From Thioalkalivibrio sp. (GTDB taxonomy: Bacteria; Pseudomonadota; Gammaproteobacteria; Ectothiorhodospirales; Ectothiorhodospiraceae): a stretch of 41,349 nt of DNA. Position 1 is the first letter of the stretch; each line of letters begins with the position of its first letter. The DNA is taken from NCBI GenBank assembly GCA_007692435.1, contig RECA01000111.1:1-41349 (forward strand). The letters run 5' to 3'. Both the position numbers and the translations under genes were made by a program. Positions 10,083 to 41,349 of this stretch are shown here, in pieces. The notes beneath the pieces were generated by a model. That model had not been told where the DNA came from. It worked only from the letters and a program-made list of their open reading frames with translations, and did no database searches.

Positions 10083-10138
10083 CAGGCTGTGTCGATCAGG
10101 CTGTGTCGATCAGGCTGTGACGATCAGGCTGTGACGAT
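10083..10138. repeat. 4 x 14 bp tandem repeat, CAGGCTGTG(T/A)CGAT
   Basis: Copies at 10083-10096, 10097-10110, 10111-10124 and 10125-10138. The first two carry T and the last two carry A at one position. Confidence 0.95.
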
Positions 10139-10545
10139 CCTGGGCCGGCCGGTGATGGTGCGCTGCAGCATCGAAGAGTAGCGACTTCGGCAGCGGGCAT
10201 CAATATCCGGTTCAATATTTCCTTGCGGAAACCGCACGGCCCACTAGCCGGGGGGAGGGGAGTTTCCATCATCGCCGGGGGATGGCGACGAAGTTCGTGC
10301 GCGAGCTCATGGTGTTCCCGCACCGCCACGGGTTGGGGACCGCTCGCGCGATCTCCCAGGCGCTCGGGGGAGCGGCAGAAGTGATACGCAAACGGAGACT
10401 CCGAGGCAGGCCGCCTCGGGGCAACGCCGGGCGCGGACCGTGGCGATTCCGGAAAACACCAACCGCGGGGCCGGCAGCCGCTCGGTGGGCTGCCGAATTC
10501 GTGGCTCAGTCTGGTTCGTCCGGCGTGCGGCCGCCGAGACACCGC

Positions 10546-39405: not shown

Positions 39406-39480
39406 GGGCGGTTAGCTCAGCGGTAGAGCACTGCCTTCACACGGCAGGGGTCACTGGTTCGAACCCAGTACCGCCCACCA
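39406..39480 (+). tRNA. tRNA-Val (anticodon CAC), CCA encoded
   Basis: GGGCGGTTAGCTCAGCGGTAGAGCACTGCCTTCACACGGCAGGGGTCACTGGTTCGAACCCAGTACCGCCCACCA; cloverleaf with loop TTCACAC. Confidence 0.95.
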
Positions 39481-40834: not shown

Positions 40835-40853
40835 CAGTGTCGTTCTGACACTG
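40835..40853. promoter_or_regulatory. Inverted repeat, candidate activator (enhancer) site
   Basis: CAGTGTC-gttct-GACACTG, with a further half-site CAGTGTGTCGC at 40865-40875; about 155 bp upstream of the predicted sigma-54 start site. Confidence 0.5.
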
Positions 40854-40973
40854 CCAGGGTGACTCAGTGTGTCGCGGTTATACGTTCGCTCCGCCACCCG
40901 GTTGCCCCGGATAGGTCGCGAATTGGCGCGTAAGTGGTTGTCATAGCGAGAACCTTTTATCCGGCCATGCATC

Positions 40974-40989
40974 TGGCACGTCGTATGCA
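40974..40989 (+). promoter_or_regulatory. Sigma-54 (RpoN) -24/-12 promoter
   Basis: TGGCACGTCGTATGCA against consensus TGGCACGNNNNTTGCW: GG and GC correctly spaced with one mismatch. Confidence 0.8.
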
Positions 40990-41030
40990 GGGTGGACGTA
41001 ACAATTCCACCAAGTGAACAGGAGTCACTG

Positions 41031-41349
41031 ATGATACGACGCAAAAGCGCCCTGGCTCTGGCCATCGCGTCTTTGGTAGCCTTGGGAGGCTCTGCCGCCG
41101 CTCAAGGCTTCGACGATGATGCCGCTGATGCATCGCCCGAGGCCGGCATGGATACGCAGCCCCCGGAGCGGGGCATGGATATGCCACCGCACGAGGGTGA
41201 AATGGGCACGCCGCCAGCGGGCGACATGGGTGCGCCACCTCCGGGTGACATGGGCACGCCGCCAGCGGGCGACATGGGTGCGCCACCTCCGGGTGACATG
41301 GGTGCGCCACCTCCGGGTGACATGGGTGCGCCACCTCCGGGTGACATGG
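41031..41349 (+). CDS. Exported octapeptide-repeat protein (3' truncated by window)
   Basis: AGGAG Shine-Dalgarno 6 nt before ATG; signal peptide MIRRKSALALAIASLVALGGSAAAQG; then MGTPPAGD/MGAPPPGD repeats. Absent from the + ORF track because no stop lies inside the window. Confidence 0.8.
   Translation, partial: MIRRKSALALAIASLVALGGSAAAQGFDDDAADASPEAGMDTQPPERGMDMPPHEGEMGTPPAGDMGAPPPGDMGTPPAGDMGAPPPGDMGAPPPGDMGAPPPGDM
41202..41349 (+). repeat. 24-bp tandem coding repeat (6 full units, continues past window)
   Basis: Units start at 41202, 41226, 41250, 41274, 41298 and 41322 in order A-B-A-B-B-B, where A=MGTPPAGD and B=MGAPPPGD. Confidence 0.95.

Follow-up and report, generated by a model that had tools for sequence, protein, structure and literature searches.

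The window, a stretch of 41,349 nucleotides, is an entire contig (C196) of a Thioalkalivibrio assembly of 2.71 Mb in 244 contigs (G000). At its far end, on the forward strand, lies a gene for a repeat protein (41031-41349) whose 3' end falls beyond the window. A ribosome-binding site, AGGAG (41020-41024), gives the start an AGGAG-N6-ATG context. Translation of 41031-41348 yields a signal peptide predicted by eye, MIRRKSALALAIASLVALGGSAAA followed by Q (41031-41102), an acidic Met/Pro linker, QGFDDDAADASPEAGMDTQPPERGMDMPPHEGE (41103-41201), and six complete 24-nt units (41202-41345) encoding the octapeptides MGTPPAGD (A) and MGAPPPGD (B) in the order A-B-A-B-B-B, the array continuing past the contig end. 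This matches exactly the exported (MG[TA]PP[AP]GD)n protein that a preliminary description had read here, and the signal peptide is kept in orthologues and in paralogues of the DUF4168 family. The duplication of a 48-bp A-B unit proposed at the same time agrees with the unit order and with Tandem Repeats Finder (TRF), by which 41195-41349 is called as a 24/48-bp array (93% matches at period 48). The repeat locus is preceded by an SDR gene, which has a tRNA-Val (cac) gene (39406-39480) just upstream of it; elsewhere in the window a 14-bp tandem repeat, CAGGCTGTGACGAT, occurs in about four copies (10083-10139), and a search for a plasmid origin found nothing.

The repeat frame is a real gene and not a chance open reading frame, since its start context is visible, orthologues exist in other genomes, and the differences between units of the window array fall at codon positions 1, 2 and 3 in numbers of 16, 0 and 32, two thirds of the codon differences being synonymous, as expected for a selected protein. 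Frames on the opposite strand are also open because the repeat contains no stops on that strand; coding there was rejected and these frames regarded as a by-product of the repeat. In the window protein and its relatives, the mature chains contain 10-15% Met, 21-34% Pro and 15-24% Gly, carry a net negative charge, have neither Lys nor Cys and at most one His, and are almost certainly disordered. Pfam and NCBIfam searches with the window protein, and a Pfam search with two orthologues, returned no match, bearing out the impression that no named family is involved.

As the contig ends within the array, six is a minimum for the repeats in G000. A single other place in the assembly matches: the reverse complement of contig C9 (L003) begins with the same repeats in frame (minus strand, 8801 down to about 8519) and carries about eight further units before ending in ...GPGDAPAAPPTRP-stop, that is, ...GRDMEMPPREGMGAPGPGDAPAAPPTRP-stop. 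Downstream of this stop, on the same strand, is a gene for a Met/Pro-rich lipoprotein (8371-8072). We found no exact overlap between the ends of C196 and C9 and therefore infer the join; C9 is most probably the other end of the window's repeat gene, being the sole match in frame, ending like the orthologues (GAPPTRP in G017, GAPPTRWP in G012, GAPPARP in G015) and carrying a gene pair that is adjacent in the complete genome G012. The early stop or frameshift reckoned with in the preliminary description did not occur. An anchor, sorting signal or PEP-CTERM motif, also considered there for the C-terminus, is absent from C9, and the orthologue ends are equally plain.

Promoter elements shared with DUF4168 genes

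Three features that the preliminary description did not contain, namely the partner lipoprotein gene, a sigma-54 promoter with a dyad and a link to DUF4168 genes, shape the interpretation of the locus. A perfect -24/-12 element, TGGCACGTCGTATGC (GG-N10-GC; 40974-40988, forward strand), lies 57 bp upstream of the start. It is preceded on the same strand by a distal dyad, GTGTCGTTCTGACAC (40837-40851), a putative site for an NtrC-family activator, and by a proximal dyad with one mismatch, GTGTCGCGGTTATAC (40869-40883). The 2.7-Mb assembly contains no perfect GTGTC-N5-GACAC besides the distal dyad, which is kept in six promoters of the repeat/lipoprotein pair; the proximal one is likewise kept in other pair promoters and is perfect in G027 and at the G017 locus on contig C186. 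The consensus is GTRTC-N5-GAYAC, and every readable pair promoter in Thioalkalivibrio has a perfect sigma-54 site, at -53 to -59, together with the dyad. With its -24/-12 element and putative upstream activator site, the window gene would be classed as sigma-54-dependent, and the fixed distance between sigma-54 site and dyad is that of the DUF4168-type regulon.

Indeed, the DUF4168 genes of this clade have the same layout upstream. We scanned 46 genomes for GTRTC-N5-GAYAC followed by TGGCAYG at a gap of 90-120 or 105-135, which gave 14 and 16 matches, respectively, and none with a reversed control. The 18 distinct places include 11 before DUF4168 genes and six before the pair; the last, in an unrelated genome, is presumably a chance occurrence. 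Because the motif is common to both, a single regulator probably controls the DUF4168 genes and the repeat/lipoprotein pair alike. A candidate is at hand: in G000, G012, G009 and G023 the DUF4168 gene is preceded by a gene for an NtrC-family regulator, and a kinase gene was seen as well (in the first two, both stand just upstream), while one DUF4168 gene each in G041 and G044 also follows such a regulator. In G000 the uncharacterised kinase/NtrC-type regulator/DUF4168 cluster (contig C174; L076, 10903-14488) seems to be the hub from which this small regulon is controlled. At 382 bits against a curated ZraR cut-off of 760, the regulator led us to reject ZraSR proper; it also falls below the curated cut-offs for AtoC, NtrC and PrsR. 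The seeming absence of DUF4168 from G023 is an assembly artefact, contig C30 of that genome ending inside the gene (L097, 1-350).

In G041 and G044, which belong to Ectothiorhodospira, it is a DUF4168 gene and not a repeat gene that occupies the first place of the lipoprotein operon. Its sigma-54 site stands at -57, its dyad has diverged by two mismatches, and its signal peptide and first residues (MTLRKTALTLAITSLFALGGTAAAQGFGDDAG) resemble those of the window protein; the lipoprotein downstream was read in G041. Whole-genome searches with the window protein had DUF4168 genes among their weaker matches. The two proteins have homologous signal peptides, but where DUF4168 (PF13767) proteins have a helical domain the window protein has its Met/Pro/Gly repeats: it gives no Pfam match, against scores of 55-71 bits for genuine members encoded in the same genomes. 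The DUF4168 paralogues also contain long Gly/Pro/Gln linkers with little Met. A structure model of DUF4168 is helical, at moderate confidence (pLDDT 71); a PDB search with it gave no significant match, and hence no functional hint, and our literature search found no paper mentioning the domain.

Operon position, signal peptide and the sigma-54 site at -57 are common to both genes, and the simplest reading is that the folded domain was lost while a low-complexity linker expanded; the repeat protein probably arose in this way where a DUF4168 gene had stood. Donation of the signal peptide is a less simple alternative. The fuller version of the first scenario, in which a disordered Met/Pro/Gly array of variable length replaced the domain under the same switch and at the same operon position, is offered tentatively.

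Distribution and loss of the repeat gene

Among 47 genomes of the family searched, clear orthologues of the repeat gene were found in G000, G012, G017 and G023, and G015 has a C-terminal piece. Relatives named through the partner gene, by an alignment scan of genome contigs with the lipoprotein, are Thioalkalivibrio metagenome-assembled genomes and Ectothiorhodospira haloalkaliphila, which places the host among the soda-lake-type sulfur oxidisers of the Thioalkalivibrio/Ectothiorhodospira group. In G012, complete in a single contig, the repeat gene (211793-212089) and the lipoprotein gene (212558-212830) are adjacent, and the pair recurs in other Thioalkalivibrio genomes with differing flanking genes; no metal or redox gene is a consistent neighbour across the genomes compared. 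The repeat protein is the product of a real gene in an unnamed, narrowly distributed family.

Intact frames have 138 codons in G017 and 201 in G012. Unit length and Met spacing vary from genome to genome (8 in the window, 9, or 2/7/9 in relatives), so that a Met at every eighth residue, as first described, holds for the window and not as a rule of the family. What is kept across arrays, each species having its own, is M-x-x-P, with Met in 62 of the 71 [x][GEDN][ATMV]P contexts.

Two loci bear the marks of a later loss of the repeat gene. At G017:C186 (L071, 1-420) only ATGATACGACGC remains ahead of the lipoprotein leader, and in G027 (contig C130; L069, 3700-4100) the pair promoter is joined straight to the lipoprotein gene, the deletion junction lying between two ribosome-binding sites of the type AACAGG(A/G)G. 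At both scars the arrangement now places the lipoprotein gene under the sigma-54 promoter. These losses show that the repeat gene is dispensable; G017 has a second, intact copy at another locus. Only distantly related lipoproteins rich in Met and Gln (MKHSTKIL..., MKRSTGIL...; L027-L038) are encoded by many further Thioalkalivibrio genomes, and none of the five upstream regions read (L027, L028, L029, L031 and L033) contains a strict sigma-54 match.

Possible roles of the repeat protein

We propose, with a probability of roughly 0.45, that the repeat protein is a DUF4168-derived, sigma-54-switched and disordered methionine sponge that acts in the periplasm as part of an envelope-stress response. 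The repeat gene would form the first half of a two-gene unit, completed by the Met/Pro-rich lipoprotein gene and transcribed from the sigma-54 promoter; judging by the shared motif, the NtrC-family two-component system beside the DUF4168 gene most likely switches it on. Once exported, the acidic chain, free of Lys and Cys, would expose its Met thioethers to solvent, where they would most likely bind soft metals (Cu+ or Ag+) or be oxidised sacrificially. The Met-rich periplasmic metal-binding role aired in the preliminary description may thus apply, and is better motivated now that probable sigma-54/two-component control has come into view; for the extracellular matrix role there is no support. 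The G000 genome encodes a periplasmic MsrP, as do its relatives, at a site unlinked to the repeat locus, which is consistent with a repairable Met sink but not specific to it. Arguing against a sponge, the pair has no conserved metal or redox neighbour, the repeat gene is dispensable, and the repeats are without the His on which SilE depends and for the most part without tight MxxM spacing. The main texts of Thioalkalivibrio transcriptome papers (low temperature, arsenite) mention neither sigma-54 nor Met-rich proteins.

These properties invite analogies with several known systems. In ZraPSR/AtoSC-type systems, as here, a histidine kinase and an NtrC-family regulator are encoded beside a small exported protein. 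Expression of ZraP is driven by a sigma-54 promoter that ZraR controls, and the Escherichia coli zraP site, TTGGCACGGAAGATGCA (PMC4591121), is near-identical in kind to that of the window gene; however, the regulator here lies under the curated cut-offs and the output protein is not ZraP. The MXKDX proteins MrpX and BcrX, for which a role as sacrificial HOCl sinks has been proposed (PMC8315932), are likewise small, exported, Met-rich and built of tandem repeats, but they are under ECF sigma control with msrPQ as a neighbour, whereas the window gene has a sigma-54 promoter, an octapeptide without Lys and a location away from msrPQ; membership was rejected for want of any NCBIfam match at E<=1 and of Lys in the mature chain. 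In SilE, a disordered His/Met "molecular sponge", and in PcoE, HxxM/MxxH motifs account for ten conserved His per protein (PMC5008109). Both proteins resemble the repeat protein as proposed in being disordered periplasmic chains that contain Met, but with 0-1 His in its mature chains it lacks their motifs and was not assigned to them. PEP-CTERM proteins under PrsK/PrsR are sigma-54-regulated, exported and of low complexity too, but end in a PEP motif, a hydrophobic helix and a basic cluster; the window protein family ends in ...APPTRP, ...APPTRWP or ...APPARP and its putative regulator scores below the TIGR02915 cut-off, so this assignment was also rejected.

Other roles deserve consideration. 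The chain could be a structural element or spacer, a Pro/Gly-rich disordered polymer in the periplasm or at the surface that shields the envelope, or crowds it, under haloalkaline stress, its Met being incidental. The net negative charge, the Pro and Gly contents and the Met-poor linkers of the DUF4168 paralogues suit this idea, which we nevertheless think unlikely: Met was retained at 10-15% over independently expanded arrays, the partner lipoproteins are Met-rich as well, and the repeat protein has no anchor. An accessory role in signalling, with the protein feeding back on the sensor kinase in the manner of ZraP or CpxP and the number of repeats tuning the response, appears improbable. Although control is shared with a kinase-adjacent DUF4168 gene and ZraP-type accessory proteins are expressed from sigma-54 promoters, a low-complexity chain offers no folded domain for binding a sensor, and most genomes that keep a DUF4168 gene have no repeat gene.

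The same sparse distribution, the absence of the DUF4168 domain and the deletions in G027 and at G017:C186 might suggest a decaying DUF4168 pseudogene whose linker expands neutrally by slippage. More improbable still, this account conflicts with the intact frames of G017 and G012, which retain promoter, signal peptide and the GAPP[TA]RP/GAPPTRWP C-terminus, and with the third-position bias of substitutions in the window array. That the assembler created or collapsed the repeats, a concern voiced from the start, is highly improbable; the G000 contig does end within the array, as do those of G023 and G015, but complete, single-contig G012 contradicts it with an intact 201-residue protein encoded at a corresponding locus, leaving only the exact repeat number in G000 exposed to such an error.

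The wiring and the DUF4168-type origin are more remarkable than the repeat itself. They would bring an uncharacterised domain and a Met-repeat protein without a family name together in one small sigma-54/two-component regulon of haloalkaliphilic sulfur oxidisers, in an apparent case of a folded domain giving way to a disordered repeat array, with the promoter and the export signal left in place. Under the tentative replacement scenario, this stress response would have a tunable methionine polymer as its effector. In G044 a second DUF4168 gene is likewise followed by a gene for a Pro-rich exported protein (L096, 7300-8108), so the association of DUF4168 with such a partner may be old.
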